Source of the DNA: Bradyrhizobium quebecense
Lineage (GTDB): Bacteria > Pseudomonadota > Alphaproteobacteria > Rhizobiales > Xanthobacteraceae
Direction of reading: 5' to 3'
Length of the DNA stretch: 64,000 nt
Assembly (NCBI RefSeq): GCF_013373795.3
Contig: NZ_CP088022.1
Coordinates: 62,001 to 126,000, forward strand
The translations under genes and the position numbers were made by a program. Positions 36,954-47,451 of the stretch are shown here, one piece after another; positions within the stretch are counted from its first letter, which is position 1, and the number at the start of each line of letters is the position of its first letter. A model generated the notes under the pieces. It saw only the letters and a list, made by a program, of their open reading frames with translations, made no database searches and had not been told where the DNA came from.

Positions 36954-37763
36954 TTAGCGCCTGCCGCCGCGCCCGACAATTTTCTCGTTGAACGTGTTGA
37001 CGGACTGGCTGACGTCGCTGAGCGTCCTGCGGGTTTCGGCGATCATGGCGCCGGATTTCTTGTCAAAACTCTGGATCAGCTCGCGCAGCGAGATCACGGT
37101 CGGTAGCAACTCGCCGCCATATTTGTCGCTACCGAAGCTCTTCAGGAACTTGTCGGCGGACGTCAACTTGCCGTCGACCGCGTCGACGCCGTCCTCGGCG
37201 GCATCGATGAAGCCCGCGATCAGCTCGCCACTGCCGGACAGCGAGTTGGTGAAGTTCTCGAGCCCGAGCAGCGAGTCCTTGATGTCGGCCTCGTTCTCGG
37301 TGATGACGCGATCGACATTGCGCAGCGCGACGCGCAGCTTCTCCTGGATGCCCATCGTGCCTTCGGCGTCGGCGGTCAGCTCGGGAATGCCGTCGGCGCC
37401 GAGCGCAGGCGGCGGAGCATCGTCGGTGCCGCCGGTGAAGGAGATCGAGGCGATCCCGGTGAGGCCCTGGAATTCGAGGCCGACCTGGGTGTCCTTCTTG
37501 ATCGGGGCGTTGCCCTCGATCCGCGTCATCGCCACCACGCGGTGACGGTCGAGCCTGATCGAGACCACCTCGCCGATCCGCACGCCGGCGAAGTTGACGC
37601 TGCCGCCGCGGCGCAGGCCGGAGGCCGAGCCCTCGAACACGACGCGGAACGGCACCATCCGTTTGATGCCGGCATAGCGCTGATAGCCCAGCCAGCCGCC
37701 GAGCGAGCCGGCGATCAGGGCCAGCGTCAGGGTGCCGATCACGAGATTGCTGGCGCGCGCCAT
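36954..37763 (-). CDS. MCE/MlaD-family lipid-transport protein, orphan
   Basis: A 269-residue protein from ATG 37763 (11 extra residues if GTG-like start at 37796 is used). N-terminal membrane anchor 'NLVIGTLTLALIAGSLGGWLGY', then one MCE domain ('FRVVFEGSASGLRRGGSVNFAGVRIGEV', with the 'GLxxGxxVxxxGxxxGxV' MlaD motif) and a long helical C-terminal region with 'VALRNVDRVITENEADIKD'. MCE proteins hold phospholipid for transport across the periplasm by an ABC system. No ATPase or permease gene lies beside it here. Confidence 0.87.
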   Translation of the reverse strand: MARASNLVIGTLTLALIAGSLGGWLGYQRYAGIKRMVPFRVVFEGSASGLRRGGSVNFAGVRIGEVVSIRLDRHRVVAMTRIEGNAPIKKDTQVGLEFQGLTGIASISFTGGTDDAPPPALGADGIPELTADAEGTMGIQEKLRVALRNVDRVITENEADIKDSLLGLENFTNSLSGSGELIAGFIDAAEDGVDAVDGKLTSADKFLKSFGSDKYGGELLPTVISLRELIQSFDKKSGAMIAETRRTLSDVSQSVNTFNEKIVGRGGRR

Positions 37764-37840
37764 GCGTTGGGGACCTGTCCGCGAAGCAGACCTCAAGAGA
37801 TAGCGGATTTGCGGCGGATAGTCACCGCGCTTGTCCTCTT

Positions 37841-37866
37841 ACCTCGCCCCGCTTGCGGGGAGAGGT
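37841..37866. repeat. Short 'cacctctcccc'-family hairpin
   Basis: The sequence 'acctcgccccgcttgcgggg' continuing 'agaggt' forms a hairpin of about ten pairs with one mismatch. It resembles the left module of the elements at 5733, 7572 and 59058, and lies between two co-oriented genes. Confidence 0.6.
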
Positions 37867-37875
37867 AGTGGAGAG

Positions 37876-38802
37876 TCATGCGCTCTGCCTCCGCGACGCC
37901 GCGAAGACGCCGGCCAGCACCAGCGCGAAGCCGATGAAATGGAAGGCCTGCGGATGCTCGCCGATGAACACGATCGACATGATGGTGCCGAACACCGGAA
38001 CCATGTGGAAGAACGGCGCGGCGCGGTTGGCGCCAATCAGCTGCACACCGCGGTTGAAGCACAGATAGGCCACCGTCGAGGGGAATACCGCGACATAGAA
38101 CAGCGACAGCAGATTGCTGGTGGTGAGCTGCATCACCGGACGCGTGCCGAGTTCCCAGATCAGGAACGGGATCAGCAACAGCGCGCCGCAGCCGAAGGTG
38201 AAGGCCGCGACCGACAGGCCATGGATCTTGGGCCGCTTCAGGGTCAGCACCGAGTACAGCGCGAAGATCACCAGCGCGGCGATGAAGATCAGGTCGCCCT
38301 TGTTGAACTCGATCTTCGACAGCGTCGTGAGATCGCCGTGCAGCAGGATCACCAGCACGCCGGCGAGCGATAGCAACACGCCGCAGAGCTGCGCCAGCGT
38401 CAGCCGCGCGCCGAGCAGGATCAGCGACCACAGCGCGACCATCAGCGGCACGGAGGATTGCAGCAACAGCGTGTTGAGCGCCTGGGTGTGCTCGAGCGCC
38501 CAGTATTGCAGCGTGTTGAAGGCGCTGATGCCGGTCATCGACAGCAGCATCATGATGCCGAGATTCTTGCGGATCGCAGGCCAGTCGCTGGCGAGGTGCT
38601 TCCAGGCAAACGGCAGGATGATCAGGAACGCCACGAACCAGCGCAGGAACGACAGCGTCACCGGCGGAATATGGCCGGCCGCGAGCCGGCCGACGATGGC
38701 ATTGCCGGCCCAGCACATCGCGGTGATGCAGAGCAGCAGATATGGCTGGTTGGCGATCCAGGAGCCGGACGCAGGCGTTGTGGTGGAATCGGTGGCAGAC
38801 AT
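37876..38802 (-). CDS. EamA/DMT-family transporter, paralogue of the 31690-32631 gene
   Basis: A 308-residue, ten-helix exporter with the same blocks as its paralogue: 'NQPYLLLCITAMCWAGNAIV', 'PPVTLSFLRWFVAFLIILPFAW', 'QSSVPLMVALWSLILLGARLT', 'RPKIHGLSVAAFTFGCGAL' and 'RAAPFFHMVPVFGTIMSIVFI'. The two proteins look about half identical by eye along the whole length. The substrate is not known. ATG at 38802 gives the expected start; there is no leader peptide. An upstream promoter probably lies in the 290-base gap before the XRE-like gene. Confidence 0.92.
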   Translation of the reverse strand: MSATDSTTTPASGSWIANQPYLLLCITAMCWAGNAIVGRLAAGHIPPVTLSFLRWFVAFLIILPFAWKHLASDWPAIRKNLGIMMLLSMTGISAFNTLQYWALEHTQALNTLLLQSSVPLMVALWSLILLGARLTLAQLCGVLLSLAGVLVILLHGDLTTLSKIEFNKGDLIFIAALVIFALYSVLTLKRPKIHGLSVAAFTFGCGALLLIPFLIWELGTRPVMQLTTSNLLSLFYVAVFPSTVAYLCFNRGVQLIGANRAAPFFHMVPVFGTIMSIVFIGEHPQAFHFIGFALVLAGVFAASRRQSA

Positions 38803-39017
38803 GCGAAAGGCCCGGGTTCACGGCGCCGCGGCCCGCCCGCCCGGCCGTCGCCGGGCCGGTATGGATCGTCCCGGCGCCCCGTCACAGACACGGATTCCGC
38901 CGTTCTATCAATGGGGATCGACGCATCGCGACCATGCGCGAAGGCCTCTTACGGAAGGCGCGATGGCGCTTTGCCAGGCCGGTCGGCACACGCCGATCCG
39001 CCACAAGCCTCTTGTAT

Positions 39018-39095
39018 GAGCATGATCTCCGCGCAAACGCGTTCCGCGTTTGTCGCGAGGGAAAACCGCGTCGCACTTTTCCGGATCATGCTCTA
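39018..39095. repeat. TAGAGCATGATCC palindromic repeat that supplies a stop codon
   Basis: 'gagcatgatct' at the left and 'ggatcatgctcta' at the right form imperfect ends, with an internal 'aacgcgttccgcgtt' hairpin. On the minus strand it begins TAGAGCATGATCCGG; the TAG is the stop codon of the XRE-like gene. Elements starting this way are common in Bradyrhizobium. The remainder of 38803-39017 shows nothing that I recognise. Confidence 0.75.
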
Positions 39096-39479
39096 GCCGG
39101 TCTCCGGCGGCGTGGTCTGGCGCTTGACGATCTGCTCGGCGAGCTCGATCAGGATCCGCTTGGTGTCAGGGTCCTTGACGTCGCGGAACACCCGCAGCAT
39201 GCGCAGCTCGAGCAGGGATTGCAGCGATTCCGACGCCTGGCCGCCTTGTGTCTGCGCTGTGGCGGCGGGCCGGTGATTGAGGATGTCGGCGGCGATCCCG
39301 AGCATCTCGGCGACGGTCGCCAGGCGGCCGGTATCGATTTTGACGGTGCCGTCCACGCCGTTCTTTTGCAGGGAGGCCCCCGCGCACAGGATCTCGGCGA
39401 GATCTGCCTGCGACAGCCCGATTGCGCGCCAGCGCGCCTGCACCAGTTGATCGATCTGGTCGTCCTGCGATGTGCTCAT
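39093..39479 (-). CDS. XRE-like helix-turn-helix protein
   Basis: A 128-residue protein whose N-terminal 70 residues resemble a degenerate XRE domain: 'QLVQARWRAIGLSQADLAEILCAGASLQKNGVDG', with 'TGRLATVAEMLGIAADIL' as the later helices. The C-terminal half ('ESLQSLLELRMLRVFRDVKDPDTKRILIELAEQIV') is helical and may dimerise. It is probably a DNA-binding regulator. Its stop codon is contributed by a repeat element. Target unknown; it is co-oriented with luxR 421 bases upstream. Confidence 0.75.
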   Translation of the reverse strand: MSTSQDDQIDQLVQARWRAIGLSQADLAEILCAGASLQKNGVDGTVKIDTGRLATVAEMLGIAADILNHRPAATAQTQGGQASESLQSLLELRMLRVFRDVKDPDTKRILIELAEQIVKRQTTPPETG

Positions 39480-39899
39480 GGTGCGCTTGGGCGATCTCCA
39501 GCTACGTCCGTCGACAGCATGTCCGCGACGATGATTGGTAGCAAATGGAACAGCGGTTCGTCGCGACGGGACTTCTACGGATCACCCGGATCGACAATCG
39601 GTCCCGGCGCACCGGGCGAGGTGCAGGACGAACCGTGCTTTCACGACAGCTCGGCAGTCGCGCCGGGCGGGCACTGCAATATGCACCCATGGTCTGAAAT
39701 CCCTGTCATCGGGCCGCAGCCTTATTATCTAGATCGTACGCGAATGCAATCTGTGGGTGATCGTGGAGGCAAATCCAACCCGGATGTGTGACCTTGCCAC
39801 AGTTCGCGGCGTTGCCGCCGAGCGCGGCGATATGGGGCGCACGGAAGCAGCGCGCACCGAAGCAGCCCTCAGAGCGCCGCGACGGCCGCGCGGCCCCGC
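39480..39899. other. Intergenic region with one possible short frame (39531-39791, +)
   Basis: This 420-base gap has no recognised repeat. One plus-strand frame from ATG at 39531 gives 86 residues starting MIGSKWNSGSSRRDF and ending 'RGGKSNPDV'. Its third positions are mixed and it has no ribosome-binding site that convinces me, so I do not call it a gene. The part near 39700-39780 is relatively AT-rich and may hold the promoter of the minus-strand XRE-like gene. Confidence 0.3.
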
Positions 39900-40673
39900 T
39901 CACAGGTCGATGATCCCGAGCGCGATGCTCTTCGCCACCCCGTGCGTCTTGTTGGAGGCCTCGAGCTTGCGCAGCGCCTGCTTGATGAAGCCTTCCACCG
40001 TCTCCGGCGAAATGCCGAGGATCTGCGCGGTGTCGACCACGGTCTTGCCGCGCGCCGCCCAGGCGATCACTTCCTTCTCCCGTGCCGTCAGCTTGATGGT
40101 CTCGGCGGCGTCGGCGGGTTTCAGGATGGTCGGCGCGTTGCGCTGGTCGCGGTTGACGATGTCCATCGCGCGCTGCACCCAGTAGATCATTAACAGATGC
40201 AGTTCATGGCGATGGCAGACGAACAGCTTGTCGAAGTCGCGCCGCTCGTCTTCCCAGAAGAACACCGTCGAGCTCGAATGCACGGCGCCGAGCCGGTCGC
40301 GGTAATGGAAAGGCACCACGAAGCCGTCCTTGAAGCCGAACTCGCGGGCGGCATCCATCGTCTTGGCTTCGGGCGCCCGCTTGTGTCCGCTTCGTTCCGG
40401 CAGCTTCAGGCTGCTCCAGCTGAACGGCGTGTTGGTGCGTCGCGACCGCGCCAGCGCCGGATCGGCATGGACGAACTCGTTCTGCACATACGCCCGCTTC
40501 CAGGCGTCGGGAAAGGTGCCGACATGATAGGGCAGATCAAGGTCGGGCCGGCCGGCATCGACAAAGGCGAAGCCCGAAAAGCCGTAGTTCTGGACGACAC
40601 GATGCAATGACGAGCTGAGCTCGTCGATGGTATGCGACGCCTCGATGGTTGCAATCGCGTCTACCAGGCCCAT
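39900..40673 (-). CDS. LuxR-family quorum-sensing regulator
   Basis: A 257-residue LuxR-type protein. Its N-terminal autoinducer domain keeps the conserved ligand residues W58, Y62, D71, P72, W86 and G117 ('PDAWKRAYVQNEFVHADPALARS' region), and the C-terminal GerE helix-turn-helix is 'LTAREKEVIAWAARGKTVVDTAQILGISPETVEGFI' from about 192. It is divergent from the luxI-type gene with a 78-base shared gap, so it probably senses that enzyme's product. The described bjaR1-bjaI pair is co-oriented as I recall, so this is likely a different pair. Confidence 0.94.
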   Translation of the reverse strand: MGLVDAIATIEASHTIDELSSSLHRVVQNYGFSGFAFVDAGRPDLDLPYHVGTFPDAWKRAYVQNEFVHADPALARSRRTNTPFSWSSLKLPERSGHKRAPEAKTMDAAREFGFKDGFVVPFHYRDRLGAVHSSSTVFFWEDERRDFDKLFVCHRHELHLLMIYWVQRAMDIVNRDQRNAPTILKPADAAETIKLTAREKEVIAWAARGKTVVDTAQILGISPETVEGFIKQALRKLEASNKTHGVAKSIALGIIDL

Positions 40674-40683
40674 TGACTAAAAC

Positions 40684-40698
40684 CCCCGGTTTTCGGGG
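40684..40698 (-). promoter_or_regulatory. Hairpin over the luxR ribosome-binding site
   Basis: On the minus-strand transcript ccccg-aaaac-cgggg is a perfect 5-bp hairpin just upstream of the luxR start at 40673. Its 3' arm includes the only G-rich ribosome-binding-site candidate (rc of 40683-40687). Confidence 0.45.
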
Positions 40699-40714
40699 TA
40701 CCACAGTTAACCCC
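40695..40714. promoter_or_regulatory. lux-box-like 20-bp element between luxR and luxI
   Basis: The 20-base sequence with ends ggggt and acccc is a 5-bp inverted repeat with a 10-base centre, the size of known lux boxes. It is located 38-57 bases before the luxI start. The centre is not symmetric, so identification as the LuxR site is tentative. Confidence 0.35.
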
Positions 40715-40751
40715 TTTCGTTCCAGATGTTCCGCATTTGGAGGAAGGGATA

Positions 40752-41408
40752 ATGCCGCATTCATTGGACGGATATCATGCACTCATCACCAGGGAAGAGC
40801 TTGATGCGGCGCATGTCGGGGCGATGTTGCGGCTGCGCAAGCAACTGTTCGTCGACCATTGCGGCTGGCTTCTGAGCACGACCGGCGACGTCGAACGCGA
40901 TCAGTTCGACAGTTGGTATACCGAGCACTGCCTGTTGTTCTCAGGCGTCGAGCTGGTCGGCGGCTTCCGGGCGATCCGCACCGATTATCCCTATCTGACC
41001 AAGTCGGTGTTCCCGCAGCTTGCGATGCGTCGCTTTCCGAGCCGTCGCGATGCCTGGGAAATCAGCCGGTTCGGCGTGCTGCCTGGTGTCGCGAGGTCGC
41101 GGACGGCACGCGTGAACTACGCGCTGATGTTCCGCTTCGCCGAGCTGCGCGGGGCGGCGGCGCTCGTGGCGCTCGCCGACCTTTCCTACGAGCGCTTTCT
41201 CACCCGCATGGACATCCGCACCCGCCGCTACGGCCCGCCGCAGGTGATCGGCAATGATCGCATGGGCCGCCCGCTGACGGCGCTCGCCGGAGAAATCCCG
41301 CTTGGTCTCGCCGACAATCCCGGCCTGACCAAATTCCTCGACCTTGGACGGCAATTGGAGATTCACGATGCCTCACATGTTCTCGGACGTTCGAGCATTC
41401 CAGCGTGA
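40752..41408 (+). CDS. LuxI-family acyl-homoserine-lactone synthase
   Basis: A 218-residue autoinducer synthase. All conserved LuxI residues line up with correct spacing: R29, F33, W39 ('RLRKQLFVDHCGW'), D50 and D53 ('ERDQFDSWY'), R73 ('GGFRAIRTDYP'), F87, E103 and R106 ('WEISRFGV'). It joins an acyl group from acyl-ACP or acyl-CoA to S-adenosylmethionine, releasing an acyl-homoserine lactone; the acyl group cannot be told. ATG at 40752 follows a strong 'ggaggaaggg' site. Its last 41 bases overlap the following P450 gene, so the two are translated together. Confidence 0.94.
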   Translation: MPHSLDGYHALITREELDAAHVGAMLRLRKQLFVDHCGWLLSTTGDVERDQFDSWYTEHCLLFSGVELVGGFRAIRTDYPYLTKSVFPQLAMRRFPSRRDAWEISRFGVLPGVARSRTARVNYALMFRFAELRGAAALVALADLSYERFLTRMDIRTRRYGPPQVIGNDRMGRPLTALAGEIPLGLADNPGLTKFLDLGRQLEIHDASHVLGRSSIPA

Positions 41409-42732
41409 CCCGCTGCGTCTGTTGCTGACGCGCGGCAACGAGGCCGAGCTGGGTCTCGTGCCCCTGCGGCTCGGTCCTGCGCCCGTCTTTCTGGTGAACG
41501 ATCCCGATCTGCTGCGCCCGATCCTCAAGGCGCCGGAGACCGACATCGGAAAGGGGAAGCTGATCAAGAAGCTGACGCCGGTGCTCGGCCGCAGCTCGCT
41601 GATGCTGAGCGGCGAGGAGCACAAGCGGCGGCGGACGGTGCTGCAGAAGCACATGGCCAAGGGCAGCGTCGAGAAATTCCTGCCGCATATGTGCGCCGAG
41701 ATCCGCGCGGTCGGCGCCAGCCTGGCCCGGCTCGGATCGTTCGATCCGCATCATGTCACGGCGATGCTGGCGTTGCGGACTATCTGCGTCGCGATCTTCG
41801 GCTCCCAGTTGATGTCGTCCGGCGACGAGGAAGCGCTGGTTCAGGCCGTCGGCGTGATCGAGGACGATCTGGCCGAGGAGATGTTCCGCGCGTTGCCGTT
41901 CGGTCCGGTGGCTTGGTACCGGCGCCGGCAGAACCGGGTCTGCGCCAAGCTCGCGATGTCGACGGTGGTGCAGCGCCTGCGCCGCAAGGCGGGCTCAAGC
42001 AGCGCGCTGCGGGATCTCGAGGCGCTCGGCCTGAGCGATCGCGATCTCGAGGACGAGATCCTGACACTGCTGCTGGCCGGCCATCACACCACCGGTTCGA
42101 CTGCGGCGTGGATGTTCTACCAGATGGCGTCCGATCCCGCCCTGATGGACGACATTGCCGACGAGGCGGCGGAGTGCCTTGGCGACGACGGCGAGCTGCG
42201 GCTTGACGCGGTGAAGCGCGCCAATCTGAGCGCGACGCTTGTCAAGGAGGTCTGCCGGCTGTATCCCAGCGCCTGGTGGTTCTCGCGCGAGGTGATGCAG
42301 CCGGTGACGATCGGCGGGCGCGACCTCAAGGTCGGCACCTCGCTGCTGATCTGTCCCTGGCAATTGCAGCGCGATCCCAGGCATTTCGAGGATCCCGACC
42401 GCTTCCTGATGACGCGGCGCTACAACACCGACGCCTACATCCCGTTCGGCGCCGGCCCGCGCGCCTGCGCCGGGATGGGGGTTGCGATGCTCGAGTTGCA
42501 ATTGCTCGCGCTCGAGATCGCAGCCGCCTATCGCTTCACCGCCGTCAGCCCGAATCCGGCGCCCTGGCCGAAAGCTTCGGTGACGCTGATTCCGCCGCCG
42601 ATGACGATCGACATCGAAGTCCGCGAGCTGCCATCGCGCATCCTGCATCTCGGCGAGGAAGCCGAGCGGCTGCCATACATTTCATCCGCCAGCGCGGCGT
42701 CCATCAGCACATTACAATCGGTATCCCAATGA
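41368..42732 (+). CDS. Cytochrome P450
   Basis: A 454-residue soluble P450 with every diagnostic motif: I-helix 'AGHHTTGST' (residues 237-245), K-helix ExxR in 'KEVCRLYP' (E294, R297), and heme-binding 'FGAGPRACAGMG' (C367). There is no N-terminal membrane anchor. ATG at 41368, with 'ttggag' eight bases before, lies inside the end of the luxI gene. P450s of this class use ferredoxin partners; none is encoded here. Its substrate is unknown; the luxI overlap suggests a role linked to signal making or to a signal-controlled product. The stop overlaps the next small gene (ATGA). Confidence 0.95.
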   Translation: MPHMFSDVRAFQRDPLRLLLTRGNEAELGLVPLRLGPAPVFLVNDPDLLRPILKAPETDIGKGKLIKKLTPVLGRSSLMLSGEEHKRRRTVLQKHMAKGSVEKFLPHMCAEIRAVGASLARLGSFDPHHVTAMLALRTICVAIFGSQLMSSGDEEALVQAVGVIEDDLAEEMFRALPFGPVAWYRRRQNRVCAKLAMSTVVQRLRRKAGSSSALRDLEALGLSDRDLEDEILTLLLAGHHTTGSTAAWMFYQMASDPALMDDIADEAAECLGDDGELRLDAVKRANLSATLVKEVCRLYPSAWWFSREVMQPVTIGGRDLKVGTSLLICPWQLQRDPRHFEDPDRFLMTRRYNTDAYIPFGAGPRACAGMGVAMLELQLLALEIAAAYRFTAVSPNPAPWPKASVTLIPPPMTIDIEVRELPSRILHLGEEAERLPYISSASAASISTLQSVSQ

Positions 42733-42989
42733 CAACACACATCACGACTGCCAGCATCGGGCAGAGGGCCATGGATCAAGTGCAAATGCGCAGCTTGCGC
42801 GACGTCATCGCGGTGTTGATCGAGCAGCGCAGCATCGTGACGGCGGCCGGCGCGACCTTCGCCGCACATCTGCTCGACCTCGCGATCATGCAGCTCAGGC
42901 TCAACGTCAACGATATTTCGGCGGAGGAATTGTCCGGCCTGTCCGACTATGTCGGCGCGGAGTTCAACAGGGACAAGCCCTCGCATTGA
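42729..42989 (+). CDS. Small protein coupled to the P450 gene, 86 aa, unknown
   Basis: The ATG at 42729 overlaps the P450 stop (ATGA). The 86-residue product begins MTTHITTASIGQRAMDQVQ and is mainly helical, with 'LRDVIAVLIEQRSIVTAAGATFAAHLLDLAIMQLRLN' as a possible amphipathic helix pair and 'NDISAEELSGLSDYVGAEF' at the C-terminus. No cofactor motif, signal peptide or clear membrane segment. I do not recognise a family. The overlap and good codon usage support it as a real third member of the luxI-P450 unit. Confidence 0.7.
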   Translation: MTTHITTASIGQRAMDQVQMRSLRDVIAVLIEQRSIVTAAGATFAAHLLDLAIMQLRLNVNDISAEELSGLSDYVGAEFNRDKPSH

Positions 42990-42996
42990 TCGCGCG

Positions 42997-43096
42997 AAGC
43001 GTTTTCGAGCGAAGTGGGCACCGGTTCGCGTGAAGAACGCGCGCTAGAGCAAGAAGCCGGAGCTTCGATTCTGATTCAATCGTAACCGAAGCTCTA
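42997..43096. repeat. TAGAGCTTCGG palindromic repeat, inverted copy
   Basis: Carries 'gcgttttcgagcgaagtggg' at its left and 'ctgattcaatcgtaaccgaa' plus 'gctcta' at its right: the reverse of the element at 31569-31670, with two mismatches in the 17-bp arms. The final TAG on the minus strand is the stop codon of the ybaK-type gene. Confidence 0.82.
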
Positions 43097-43576
43097 ATCC
43101 TGCGTCGCCACCAGCGCCTTCATCGTGGCGCCGGCGGCAAGCGCGGCGTCGTTCGGATCGATCTCGATCTGCAGGCCGCGCTGGCCGCCATTGACGAACA
43201 CGCTGACATGCGTGAGCGCGGTCTCGTCGATCGCGGTCGGCACTTTCTTTTTCTGGCCGAACGGGCTGATACCGCCGACATGATAGCCGGTCAGCCGCTC
43301 GGCATCGGCCGGGCGCATCATCCTGGCCGACTTGCCGCCGAGGGCTGCGGCAAGCTTCTTCATGCTGACCTCGCAGTCGGACGGCACCACGGCGCAGACC
43401 GGCTTGCCGTCGACCTCCGCCATCAGCGTCTTGAGCATGCGGTTCGGGTCGACCCCGAGCGCCTCCGCCGCCTGCAGCCCGATGCTCTCGGCGCTGGAAT
43501 CGTAGACATAGGTGTGGAGCTTGAAGGCAATGCCTAGCTTGCGCAGCGCAATCGTCGCTTGTGTCGAATTGGGCAT
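43094..43576 (-). CDS. ybaK: Cys-tRNA(Pro) deacylase, YbaK/EbsC family
   Basis: A 160-residue trans-editing protein: 'MPNSTQATIALRKLGIAFKLHTYVYD', then 'QAAEALGVDPNRMLKTLMAEVDGKPVCAVVP' with the catalytic Lys in 'LKTLMAEVDG' (about residue 55) and 'YHVGGISPFGQKKKVPTAIDE'. It removes cysteine wrongly loaded on tRNA-Pro. ATG at 43576 gives the usual family start; the longer frame to 43630 adds an unlikely N-terminus. Its TAG stop is the first three bases of a palindromic repeat. Confidence 0.92.
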   Translation of the reverse strand: MPNSTQATIALRKLGIAFKLHTYVYDSSAESIGLQAAEALGVDPNRMLKTLMAEVDGKPVCAVVPSDCEVSMKKLAAALGGKSARMMRPADAERLTGYHVGGISPFGQKKKVPTAIDETALTHVSVFVNGGQRGLQIEIDPNDAALAAGATMKALVATQD

Positions 43577-43926
43577 GGTCCGGGCCGGTTGATACGGGCG
43601 AATGATCGCCGCAATGGGCCCGGCGATCAATCGGCCGTACGGTTAGCCCAAGGCCGCCCCAACATTAAATTCCCGCCAGTCCGGCGCAGCCGGGCACGGC
43701 ATGGAATTTTCAGGGGATATCAAAGGGTTGTAGCTCGTCTAAAAGGCGCAAACGACCCCCTTCTTGCTTGCGCAGCCGACCCGCTTCCTTTATCCGGTAG
43801 GCGCCTTGCGTGCGCCGCGGCCGGCCGCCGCGGTTTGGGCTGGGCATATCATGCATGGTCGCTGTGGGCGGACGCGTTTTCGCCGCGATCATGGTCTCTG
43901 AAACACCTGAAGGGAACATCTTCGCA

Positions 43927-45219
43927 ATGGCCAATGTTGTCGTCGTCGGCGCCCAATGGGGTGACGAGGGGAAGGGCAAGATCGTCGACTGGCTGTCGGA
44001 ACAGGCCGACATCGTCGTGCGCTTCCAGGGCGGCCACAATGCCGGCCATACGCTCGTGATCAATGGCGAGACCTACAAGCTGGCGCTGCTGCCCTCCGGC
44101 GTGCTGCGCCCGAACAAGCTCGCGGTGATCGGCAACGGCGTGGTGTTCGACCCGCAGGCCTTCCTCGACGAGGTCGCCAAGCTGAAGGGCCAGGGCGTTG
44201 CGGTCGGACCGGACAATCTGCGGATCGCCGAGAACGTCACCCTGATCCTGCCGCTGCATCGCGAGCTCGACTCGCTGCGCGAATCCTCCAACGCCGTCAC
44301 CTCGATCGGCACCACCCGCCGCGGCATCGGCCCGGCCTATGAGGACAAGGTCGGCCGCCGCGCCATCCGCCTGATGGATCTCGCCGATCTCGATACCCTA
44401 CCGCACAAGATCGAACGCCTGCTGGCGCACCACAATGCGCTGCGCCGCGGCAACAATCTGGAGGAGATCGACGGCAAGGGGATTCTCGCCGAACTGACGG
44501 CGTTCGCGCCGAAGCTGCTGCCCTATGCCGAGACGGTGTGGCGGCTGCTGGATATCAAGCGCCGCGAGGGCAAGCGCATCCTGTTCGAGGGCGCGCAGGG
44601 CGCGCTGCTCGACGTCGACCACGGTACCTATCCCTATGTGACGTCGTCCAACACGGTGGCGGCGCAGGCCGCGACCGGCACCGGCATGGGTCCGGGCGCG
44701 GTCGGCTATGTGCTCGGCATCTGCAAGGCCTACACCACCCGGGTCGGCCAGGGTCCGTTCCCGACCGAGCTGAACGACGAGATCGGCGAGGAAATCGGCC
44801 GCCGCGGCAAGGAATTTGGCGTCAACACCGGGCGCAAGCGCCGGGTCGGCTGGTTCGATGCGATGCTGGTGCGGCAGACCGTCCGCACCTGCGGAATTGC
44901 CGGGCTGGCGCTGACCAAGCTCGATATTCTCGACGGGTTCGACAGCATCAAGGTCTGCATCGGCTACAAGCTCGACGGCAAGGAAATCGACCATCTGCCG
45001 GCGGGCGAGGGCGCGCAGGCCCGCATCGAGCCGATCTATGAGATCATCGAGGGCTGGAAGCAGCCGACCGCCAATGCGCGGTCCTGGGCGGACCTGCCGG
45101 CCCAGGCCATCAAGTATGTCCGCCGGGTCGAGGAACTGGTGGGGTGCCCGGTCACCCTGCTTTCCACCAGCCCGGAACGTGAAGATACTATTCTGGTACA
45201 GAATCCGTTCGAGGCTTAA
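43927..45219 (+). CDS. purA: Adenylosuccinate synthetase
   Basis: A 430-residue enzyme that joins IMP and aspartate using GTP, the first step from IMP to AMP. Diagnostic segments: '[20 protein letters not shown]' (GTP P-loop with catalytic Asp), 'GGHNAGHTL' with catalytic His, '[16 protein letters not shown]', '[24 protein letters not shown]' and '[12 protein letters not shown]'. Length is normal. ATG at 43927 is in the conserved position; the frame is open upstream to 43810 without homology-like content. The next gene starts 35 bases downstream on the same strand. Confidence 0.97.
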
Positions 45220-45254
45220 CGGGATATTACCTATATCCCACCAATTGTGTGGAA

Positions 45255-46823
45255 ATGGCTGACTACTACCCGCTGATCGCCCGTGCCATCGCCGGACTGG
45301 ACCCCAACGCCCCCGGCGAAGCCCGCCGTGCGCTGTATGCGCGGGCGCGGACGGCGTTGATCCAGCAACTCCGCGGCGTGCAGCCGCCGCTCTCCGAATC
45401 CGAGATCACCCGCGAACGGCTGTCGCTGGAAGAGGCGGTGCGCAAGGTCGAGTCCGAGGCCGCGCAGCGCGCCCGCGAGGCCTCGCGCCCCGGCGGCGGG
45501 GCGGCCCGCAGCAGCGACCCGCTGCGCCGTGCCAATCCAAGACCGCCGGAGGCAAATACAAGGCCGCCCGAGGCCAATTCCGCCGACAATGCCGCGCGCC
45601 CGCGGCCGCCGGTCGAACCCCGCCCGCGCAATTTGCGCCCCGACGCGCCGCCGCCGGCCCCACCACGGCCGCAGAACCCGCAGGTTGCTGCCGGCACCGA
45701 TACCCAGGCGCCGCCCGCCCGGCCGGCTGCGCCGCGCCGTGGCCCCGAAGGCGCGCCGCCCCCGGCCGCCCCGGGTGTGCGCGGCTTCCGCGACATCACC
45801 GCCGACGCCGACGATCTCGGCCGGGCCGCCGCGCAAGCCAGCCGCAACGCGCGCAAGACCTACGCCAACGTGCCGTCGCCCTCGCCGGAATTCGACCGGC
45901 TCGAGCCGAGCCTCGAAAACCGCGGCGGCGATCCCGAGGCGCCGTATTCCTACGAGGAGTCGATCGAGGAGGCGGAGCGCTACGCCCCGCAGCCGCCCCA
46001 GGCGCCGCCGCCGCGCGCGCGGGTCAGCAATGCCGAGCGCGAGCCGAAGCGGCCGCGTGTCGGTTCGATGTTCCCGTTCAAGACCGCGATCGTGATCGGC
46101 ATCCTGCTGATCCTGGCCGGCACCGGCATCCTGCTGCGGCAGCAGGCGACCGCCTTCGTCAGCAGCCTGTTCAAATCCTCCGCCCCCGTCGAGGCGCCGA
46201 AGGATGCCGCGGCGACGCCTTCGAGCAAGAAGATCACCGACCGCGTCGGCCAGCCGTCGTCGTCGGGCGAGCCGGTCGCTCCGGTGGCGCAGCGCGTGGT
46301 GCTCTATGACGAGGACCCGTCGGATCCGAAGGGCAAGCAATATGTCGGTTCGGTGGTCTGGCGCACCGAGCAGGTCAAGGGCTCGGGCAACCAGAAGCCC
46401 GACATCGCGGTGCGCGCCGACATCGACATCCCCGATCGCAAGTTCAAGATGACGATGTCGTTCCGCCGCAACACCGATTCATCGCTGCCGGCGAGCCACA
46501 CCGCGGAATTGACCTTCATCCTGCCGCAGGACTTCGCCAATGGCGGCGTCGGCAACGTGCCGGGCATCCTGATGAAGTCCAACGAGCAGGCGCGCGGCAC
46601 GCCGCTGGCCGGGCTCGCGGTCAAGGTCACCGACGGCTTCTTCCTGGTCGGCCTCTCCAACGTCGACGCCGACCGCTCGCGCAATCTGCAGCTGTTGAAG
46701 GAGCGCTCCTGGTTCGACGTGCCGCTGGTCTATACCAACCAGCGCCGCGCCATCATCGCGATCGAAAAGGGCGCCCCCGGCGAGCGCGCCTTCAACGACG
46801 CGTTCGCCGCGTGGGGTGAGTAA
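45255..46823 (+). CDS. Large Pro-rich single-pass membrane protein of unknown function
   Basis: A 522-residue protein in three parts: an N-terminal helical cytosolic region (1-75, 'YYPLIARAIAGLDPNAPGEARRALYARARTALIQQL'), a long Pro/Arg/Ala-rich disordered stretch (80-270, with 'PRPPEANTRPPEANSADNA' repeats), one membrane helix ('FKTAIVIGILLILAGTGILLR', about 275-296) and a C-terminal domain probably in the periplasm ('VLYDEDPSDPKGKQYVGSVVWRTEQV', 'SHTAELTFILPQDFANGGVG'). ATG at 45255; a GTG two codons before is possible. It follows purA closely. I do not recognise a family. The base composition of the Pro-rich region is extremely GC-rich. Confidence 0.85.
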   Translation: MADYYPLIARAIAGLDPNAPGEARRALYARARTALIQQLRGVQPPLSESEITRERLSLEEAVRKVESEAAQRAREASRPGGGAARSSDPLRRANPRPPEANTRPPEANSADNAARPRPPVEPRPRNLRPDAPPPAPPRPQNPQVAAGTDTQAPPARPAAPRRGPEGAPPPAAPGVRGFRDITADADDLGRAAAQASRNARKTYANVPSPSPEFDRLEPSLENRGGDPEAPYSYEESIEEAERYAPQPPQAPPPRARVSNAEREPKRPRVGSMFPFKTAIVIGILLILAGTGILLRQQATAFVSSLFKSSAPVEAPKDAAATPSSKKITDRVGQPSSSGEPVAPVAQRVVLYDEDPSDPKGKQYVGSVVWRTEQVKGSGNQKPDIAVRADIDIPDRKFKMTMSFRRNTDSSLPASHTAELTFILPQDFANGGVGNVPGILMKSNEQARGTPLAGLAVKVTDGFFLVGLSNVDADRSRNLQLLKERSWFDVPLVYTNQRRAIIAIEKGAPGERAFNDAFAAWGE

Positions 46824-46858
46824 CAGCTTCAGCGCTCACCTCGGTACTCACGATCTCA

Positions 46859-46880
46859 TCGCCCGGCTGTGTCCGGGCGA
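46859..46880 (+). terminator. Hairpin after the purA unit, possible terminator
   Basis: A perfect 8-bp stem (46859-46866 with 46873-46880) around a 6-base loop, followed by 'ttcc' only. It is 36 bases behind the stop of the Pro-rich protein gene. A weak T run makes factor-independent termination uncertain; it also resembles part of the 'gcccgg..ccgggc' repeats. Confidence 0.45.
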
Positions 46881-47016
46881 TTCCGTATCGCAGCGAAGTC
46901 CGGCTGTTGCAGCGCATCGACGCGATGATCCCGGAACATTACCGGGCGCTTTCGATTTTCCCTAGAACCGTTGCGTGACTGCGTTACACTCGCCTGATGT
47001 CGGGCAGGGGCACGCT

Positions 47017-47451
47017 ATGAAACGCTATCTGATCTTCGCAGCCATCGGGCCGTTCATCGGCGGCTTCCTGCTGCTGCTCATGACCACCTATCAGTCCGGC
47101 TACTGGACCGAGACCAATGGCGGCGAGGTGGCGAAGCTGCTCGTCGTGTTCGTGAAGTCGCTGCAATACAATTATCTGTTCGGCATCGTGCCGTCGCTGA
47201 TGTTCGGCGCGGTCGACGACATCCTGATGCATATGCGGCGGATCACGCCGACGGTGCGGATGCTGATCGTCGGCGCGGTGGCGTTCGTCGGCGCAGCGCT
47301 GACCTACGCCTCGCACGGCTCCGAAAGCGGCGCCGTGCAGTTCATCCTCTACGGGCTGGTCGGCTTCATCCCAGGCGTGATCACGTCCTGGCTGGCGCAC
47401 AAATATGCCGAAGAGCAGCACGTGCCGGCGACGCCGGCATCCCAGCATTAG
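47017..47451 (+). CDS. DUF5413-like small membrane protein
   Basis: A 144-residue protein with four hydrophobic segments: 'YLIFAAIGPFIGGFLLLLM', 'YLFGIVPSLMFGAVDDILM', 'MLIVGAVAFVGAALTYA' and 'FILYGLVGFIPGVITSWLA'. It resembles the DUF5413 family of short alphaproteobacterial membrane proteins, named from memory. No function known. ATG at 47017, weak ribosome-binding site 'caggggcacg'. It stands alone between the purA unit and the autotransporter. Confidence 0.75.
   Translation: MKRYLIFAAIGPFIGGFLLLLMTTYQSGYWTETNGGEVAKLLVVFVKSLQYNYLFGIVPSLMFGAVDDILMHMRRITPTVRMLIVGAVAFVGAALTYASHGSESGAVQFILYGLVGFIPGVITSWLAHKYAEEQHVPATPASQH

Follow-up and report, generated by a model that had tools for sequence, protein, structure and literature searches.

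A luxR-luxI cassette with an overlapping cytochrome P450 gene in Bradyrhizobium and relatives, a candidate three-component quorum-sensing circuit

Several described systems for making or reading acyl-homoserine lactones (AHLs) join further components to a luxR and luxI pair. As reported for the R1-I1-crotonase circuit of Mesorhizobium japonicum, the signal is 2E,4E-C12:2-HSL (HSL, homoserine lactone), of which little is made once the linked crotonase gene is deleted (PMC10470506). The small proteins CinS and MmaP, also products of luxI operons, are reported to bind PraR (PMC4149787; PMC10790750). Cytochrome P450s have been connected with AHLs as well, as CYP102A1 (P450 BM3) oxidises them and is described as a quencher (PMC3355433), and in strain MOLA 401, which has a P450 in its genome, a role for it in poly-hydroxylated AHLs has been put forward as a hypothesis (PMC5479921). 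The subject of this report is a locus of Bradyrhizobium quebecense in which a luxI-type AHL synthase gene, divergent from luxR, overlaps a P450 gene that is followed by a gene for an 86-amino-acid (aa) protein (Table 1). It lies in a stretch of 64,000 nt (NZ_CP088022.1 positions 62,001-126,000, assembly GCF_013373795.3), hereafter the window, whose positions are used for its coordinates. The conserved luxI-P450 overlap suggests that the P450 would chemically finish the signal molecule.

When named genomes were scanned for the LuxI protein, 22 loci were returned, and tblastn with all four proteins found the LuxR-LuxI-P450 order common to 19 Bradyrhizobium loci, Microvirga pudoricolor (identity to the window 49% for LuxI and 58% for P450) and Methylocystis rosea (38% and 46%), while the 22nd LuxI locus, from a Pseudomonas, had no P450 by tblastn. 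Among 265 Bradyrhizobium genomes, the P450 was detected at E <= 1e-60 in 29 and LuxI at E <= 1e-20 in 29, and these are the same 29 genomes, the two genes always being adjacent. An order-wide sample of 397 genomes, the window's own counted, contained the P450 in 12, spanning 9 of 141 genera, and LuxI at E <= 1e-12 in 15. The P450 adjoins all 11 of the LuxIs with E <= 1e-38, the other four (E about 1e-13 to 1e-14) are without such a P450, and the twelfth genome with the P450 is truncated at a contig end. In a class-wide sample of 327 genomes, a match was found in the window's own genome only. Because of these genus, order and class counts, the luxI-P450 unit looks like an order-level trait with a patchy distribution. 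An earlier note on this DNA had called for a search of Bradyrhizobium and relatives for LuxI with an overlapping P450, and had held that an adjacency found in this strain only would be accidental; the pair recurs in about one in nine of the genus genomes, at every strong match of the order sample, and in other genera.

For closer comparison a set of 37 cassettes was used, the window copy included, of which 21 are Bradyrhizobium-near and 16 far, with start codons picked by script as those nearest to the aligned start. A quick maximum-likelihood tree was built from 60 LuxIs, 27 of the 37 P450-linked sequences plus 33 others, with a single member from outside the order; in it the P450-linked LuxIs form one side of a branch with an SH-aLRT value of 100. 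No P450-like frame was seen at 36 other LuxI places (40 records, four places having been fetched twice, mostly with flanks of about 1.5 kb). Pairwise distances over 17 of the 37 taxa correlate with r of 0.91 between LuxI and P450 (0 of 2000 permutations as high) and 0.95 between LuxI and LuxR, within a three-way range of 0.90-0.95. When ORFs of at least 70 aa around 19 loci from several genera were clustered, LuxR, LuxI and P450, along with antisense frames, were the only ones common across genera among the 40 largest clusters; the others were antisense or low-complexity frames, Bradyrhizobium-internal neighbours, and a YbaK-like ORF more than 7 kb away in Microvirga. The cassette is also carried on p1S06B, a 573-kb plasmid of Bradyrhizobium japonicum typed as conjugative, which is a possible route for transfer; there an IS1380-type transposase gene stands right after the P450 gene.

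Because the luxI/P450 overlap measures exactly 41 nt in 27 of the 37 cassettes, from at least six genera, its recurrence is not chance. The remaining overlaps are of 62 nt (eight cassettes), 44 nt (one) and 140 nt (one), and among the 16 far cassettes, whose identity to the window is 38-55% for LuxI and 38-57% for P450, the 41-nt overlap is retained in 14. Consistent with translational coupling of luxI and P450, which is likely, 34 of the 37 cassettes have a GGAG, AGGA or GAGG core no more than 15 nt 5' of the P450 start codon. However, the luxI stop is a TGA inside the codons for a conserved Arg-Asp-Pro of the P450, and the overlap is therefore partly frozen by P450 coding, which counts against it as proof of coupling. 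Because of this placement of the stop, the overlap demonstrates joint inheritance, long and unbroken, more surely than it does translational coupling. The 78-nt gap between the divergent luxR and luxI, the 41-nt luxI/P450 overlap and the 4-nt ATGA shared by the P450 stop and the 86-aa ORF, all given in the earlier note, match the coordinates exactly.

Table 1. Features of the locus, in window positions
Feature	Position	Strand	Evidence or remark
luxR, LuxR-type receptor/regulator, 257 aa	39900-40673	-	Divergent from luxI; Pfam Autoind_bind and GerE
luxI-type AHL synthase, 218 aa	40752-41408	+	Pfam Autoind_synth; catalytic residues intact
Cytochrome P450, 454 aa	41368-42732	+	Pfam p450; motifs intact; 41-nt overlap with luxI
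Small helical protein, 86 aa	42729-42989	+	4-nt ATGA overlap with P450 stop
PraR-like protein, 128 aa	39093-39479	-	Degenerate, variable recognition-helix region; C-terminal domain conserved
Shine-Dalgarno-like GGAG	41357-41360	+	Within luxI, 7 nt 5' of P450 ATG
lux-box-like dyad ACCCC-N8-GGGGT	40682-40699		Just upstream of luxR

The LuxI of the cassette matches Autoind_synth at 54.5 bits against a Pfam cut-off of 24, and residues R29, W39, D50, D53, R73, E103 and R106 are kept in 37/37 cassettes and F33 in 34/37, positions to which we presume catalytic roles. Basic residues R148 (37/37), R152 (32/37) and R159 (37/37) align, in a pairwise alignment, with K150, R154 and R161 of LasI, in a loop that the account of Christensen et al. 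ties to the use of acyl carrier protein (ACP) (PMC4234381). Because these basic residues are conserved, the acyl donor is probably a fatty acyl-ACP, and the loss of them that marks the acyl-CoA-type BjaI clade is not seen in the window LuxI. The same protein matches LasI at 59 bits versus 35 bits for the 5w8 entries, which we take to be BjaI. Two further LuxI genes of the window genome score far higher (185.6 and 177.4 bits vs 54.6 for the cassette LuxI); they lie on contigs C3 (L001) and C2 (L002), and directly behind each comes an ORF of about 322 aa, similar in the two cases and TrbB-like in appearance, and not a P450, an arrangement that suggests conjugation-linked quorum sensing (QS).

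The P450 matches its Pfam family at 176 bits, and the ExxR, FGxGxRxCxG and GHHT motifs are found in 37/37 cassettes. The I-helix reads AGHHTT, with His at the usual acid position, and the I-helix Thr, ExxR and the heme-Cys motif, whose roles we assume to be the customary ones, are all present. The cassette genes are under purifying selection, with dN/dS of 0.04-0.38 (over 20 gene pairs formed with four Bradyrhizobium loci, overlaps included); together with the catalytic motifs kept throughout the set, this bears out the view of the earlier note that neither LuxI nor P450 is decayed. As for damaged copies, the P450 frame is cut within the gene at one locus (L004:5531-6891) and is interrupted by a single stop close to its end in the genome G230, which may be assembly error or decay. 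A same-subfamily P450 on Methylosinus plasmid pMSC49b (L027:7920-9151), without luxI, is cut short and overlaps an IS66 accessory gene; it is apparently a decayed copy.

On balance, we consider it probable that the cassette specifies a three-component AHL circuit with a P450 that oxidises either the signal itself or its acyl precursor. The divergent luxR and luxI may have a lux box in common; in 17 of 20 loci the best dyad begins no more than 18 nt from the luxR start. LuxI and P450 would probably be made together from one message, with the P450 start inside luxI behind the Shine-Dalgarno-like core. LuxI would make an AHL, probably from fatty acyl-ACP as its basic residues suggest, and the P450 would oxidise either that AHL or the acyl chain while still on its carrier, before transfer, and an oxidised AHL would be the final signal. 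The cognate, co-evolving LuxR, in which W58 is conserved in 35/36 sequences and Y62, D71 and W86 in 36/36, would then read the oxidised AHL. At the end of the operon in Bradyrhizobium, the 86-aa protein may relieve PraR-type repression, as CinS and MmaP do.

A number of observations weigh against this circuit. The LuxI and P450 trees share 6 of 14 splits, and those of LuxI and LuxR 8 of 14, with weak backbone support. The lux-box-like dyad is individually beyond shuffles (<=10 of 200) in just 8 of 20 loci, and that of the window is not beyond shuffled sequence (38 of 200 shuffles). No ferredoxin or reductase gene was found near the cassette among 11 ORFs scanned at 36954-47451, and 26 Fer2 matches lie elsewhere in the window genome. 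The nearest named P450 profiles are those of terpene oxygenases, matched far under their cut-offs. Finally, co-expression alone is also compatible with an oxidase under QS control that acts on another substrate, or with an enzyme for breaking down the signal.

The first of these alternatives, that the P450 is a QS target merely next to luxI and makes a separate density-controlled metabolite such as an oxidised lipid or terpenoid, draws on the relatives of the enzyme. Among curated profiles and solved structures, those closest to it in sequence belong to terpene P450s (albaflavenone synthase CYP170A1 and pentalenene oxygenase), all far under the curated cut-offs, and its predicted fold is closest to CYP175A1, followed by BM3 (a fused-reductase enzyme), CYP46A1 and CYP170A1. 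However, across genera no gene for making a substrate was seen to accompany the cassette, every LuxI of this clade in the sampled genomes came with the P450 (29/29 and 11/11), and a mere downstream target would not need a distinct LuxI clade. Because no other biosynthetic gene was seen travelling with the cassette, we infer that the first of the two readings offered in the earlier note, a P450 acting on the lactone or on its acyl precursor, has the better support, and a separate metabolite seems unlikely. Less probable again is self-quenching, whereby the P450 would remove or attenuate the signal as a built-in negative feedback or to shape a pulse. Oxidation by CYP102A1 is reported to lower AHL activity (PMC3355433), but a quencher co-produced with the synthase would presumably drive a futile cycle, and it need not follow one LuxI clade so strictly. 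An accidental or decayed linkage, for which the coding-frozen overlap and the damaged frames of L004 and G230 might be cited, is highly improbable in the face of cross-genus conservation at 38-57% P450 identity, motifs intact in 37/37 cassettes under purifying selection, and the co-distribution of LuxI and P450.

The earlier note mentioned neither the PraR-like gene that lies beyond luxR nor the restriction of the small gene to the Bradyrhizobium-near cassettes (21/37), which places it outside the cross-genus core. The 86-aa protein matched no Pfam family, none of its 35 database relatives is functionally named, and it is modelled as three helices with moderate confidence. A profile of the family detects one paralogue within the window genome (E 4e-9), whose gene is divergent to, and at most about 0.5 kb from, a PraR-type regulator gene. 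Searched against 20 hand-picked small ORFs behind luxI/P450 genes, the profile matched best those of loci L098 (E 3e-5) and L099 (E 2e-4), E-values that hold for the set of 20 ORFs, with neither score reached by its 300 shuffles; the remaining 18 were not convincing as relatives. The L099 ORF begins 79 nt after luxI. At L098, luxI is followed by a 72-aa small ORF, in ATGA overlap with the luxI stop, and then by an ORF judged by eye to be crotonase-like, a variant of the Mesorhizobium circuit with the small gene interposed before the crotonase-like ORF.

The PraR-like gene stands beside luxR in 21/21 Bradyrhizobium-near cassettes. Its 128-aa product aligns over residues 2-122 with a PraR-type protein of the genome (28% identity, E 1.6e-4), the C-terminus being conserved and the recognition-helix region degenerate and variable; it had no Pfam match, and its sole NCBIfam match, of HipB type, was sub-threshold (E 0.055). 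Because CinS and MmaP bind PraR and PraR-type genes are found beside members of the small-protein family, we propose by analogy that the 86-aa protein is a CinS/MmaP-like anti-repressor that would relieve PraR-type repression. The protein looks like a regulatory output and not a part of the signal chemistry.

This bears on the joint function that the earlier note had read from the overlaps of the whole cassette. LuxI and P450 are genuinely coupled, the pairing is old, and in the sampled genomes the two are inherited strictly together. A joint function that takes in the small protein as well is not supported, since its gene also sits in overlap behind an unrelated enzyme in relatives without luxI or P450 at the locus. 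The PraR-like gene was found in 44 of 217 Bradyrhizobium genomes, adjoining the cassette in 24, away from the genome's own cassette in one, and without any cassette in 19. Ten of the latter loci (L110-L119) were examined, and luxI and P450 are lacking in all ten stretches. Nine keep the PraR-like and small genes in the matching syntenic position, flanked by EamA and PurA, the tenth (L113) being without the small gene. Nine of the ten carry an alternative module, a LysR gene divergent from genes for a GNAT protein of about 400 aa, an isochorismatase-like enzyme, the small protein and an MFS transporter, which could be another signal or metabolite module. The small gene overlaps P450 by 4 nt in 20 of 21 cassettes, the exception being L004 with its shortened P450 frame, and overlaps the isochorismatase gene by 8-14 nt in 9/9 (taking the ATG nearest the enzyme stop). 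In none of 31 loci (21 with the cassette and 10 without) are both modules complete, and a search of the window genome for the GNAT gene gave no match at E <= 1e-10. Because an orphan LuxR gene, whose product is 81% identical to that of the window, remains at L110:2265-3035 and L113:5759-6529 with luxI-P450 missing, the cassette was probably lost there, and the orphans are possible LuxR solos. A tentative and rather doubtful extension is that the locus works as a plug-in signalling hub, in which a constant PraR-like/CinS-like output pair would be driven by exchangeable signal modules, either LuxR/LuxI-P450 with an oxidised AHL of a new chemical class or LysR/GNAT/isochorismatase-like with perhaps a different signal; translation of the small gene would become coupled anew to that of the enzyme gene in front of it, and the orphan LuxR kept by some strains after loss of the synthase may eavesdrop.

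The luxI-P450 loci define a coherent family of AHL systems, as yet uncharacterised, among legume symbionts and their relatives. Their signal is probably unpredictable from LuxI alone, and standard AHL screens could miss such signals. The cassette offers a test case for a dedicated bacterial P450 finishing a quorum signal and, if that holds true, the idea of a three-component circuit extends from one enzyme class to another.

Among AHL systems of the same genus, BjaR-BjaI is reported to use isovaleryl-HSL (PMC4234381); unlike BjaI, the window LuxI has ACP-type basic residues and a linked P450. CYP102A1 and the MOLA 401 enzyme resemble the proposal in that a P450 acts, or is suggested to act, on AHL acyl chains (PMC3355433; PMC5479921). 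As in the reported CinR-CinI-CinS system of Rhizobium leguminosarum (PMC4149787) and MmaI-MmaP of Methylobacterium (PMC10790750), a small protein ends the luxI operon and a PraR-type regulator is present in the genome. In contrast to those systems, here luxI and the small gene are separated by a P450 gene, and luxR has a degenerate PraR-like gene beside it. No description of a luxI-P450 unit was found in full-text searches of open-access PMC, where most papers were judged by title and abstract. The closest likeness is to the Mesorhizobium circuit, in which, by the published account (PMC10470506), luxR, luxI and a third linked enzyme gene travel together, as they do here with strict linkage of the third gene. 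There, however, the third gene encodes a crotonase-superfamily protein and lies 8 bp downstream of I1, whereas here it encodes a P450 and overlaps luxI, and I1 clusters with the acyl-CoA type (PMC10470506), whereas the window LuxI keeps the basic residues of ACP users. On the basis of that literature, the three-component AHL circuit is known already, and a P450 as its putative third component would be new there.

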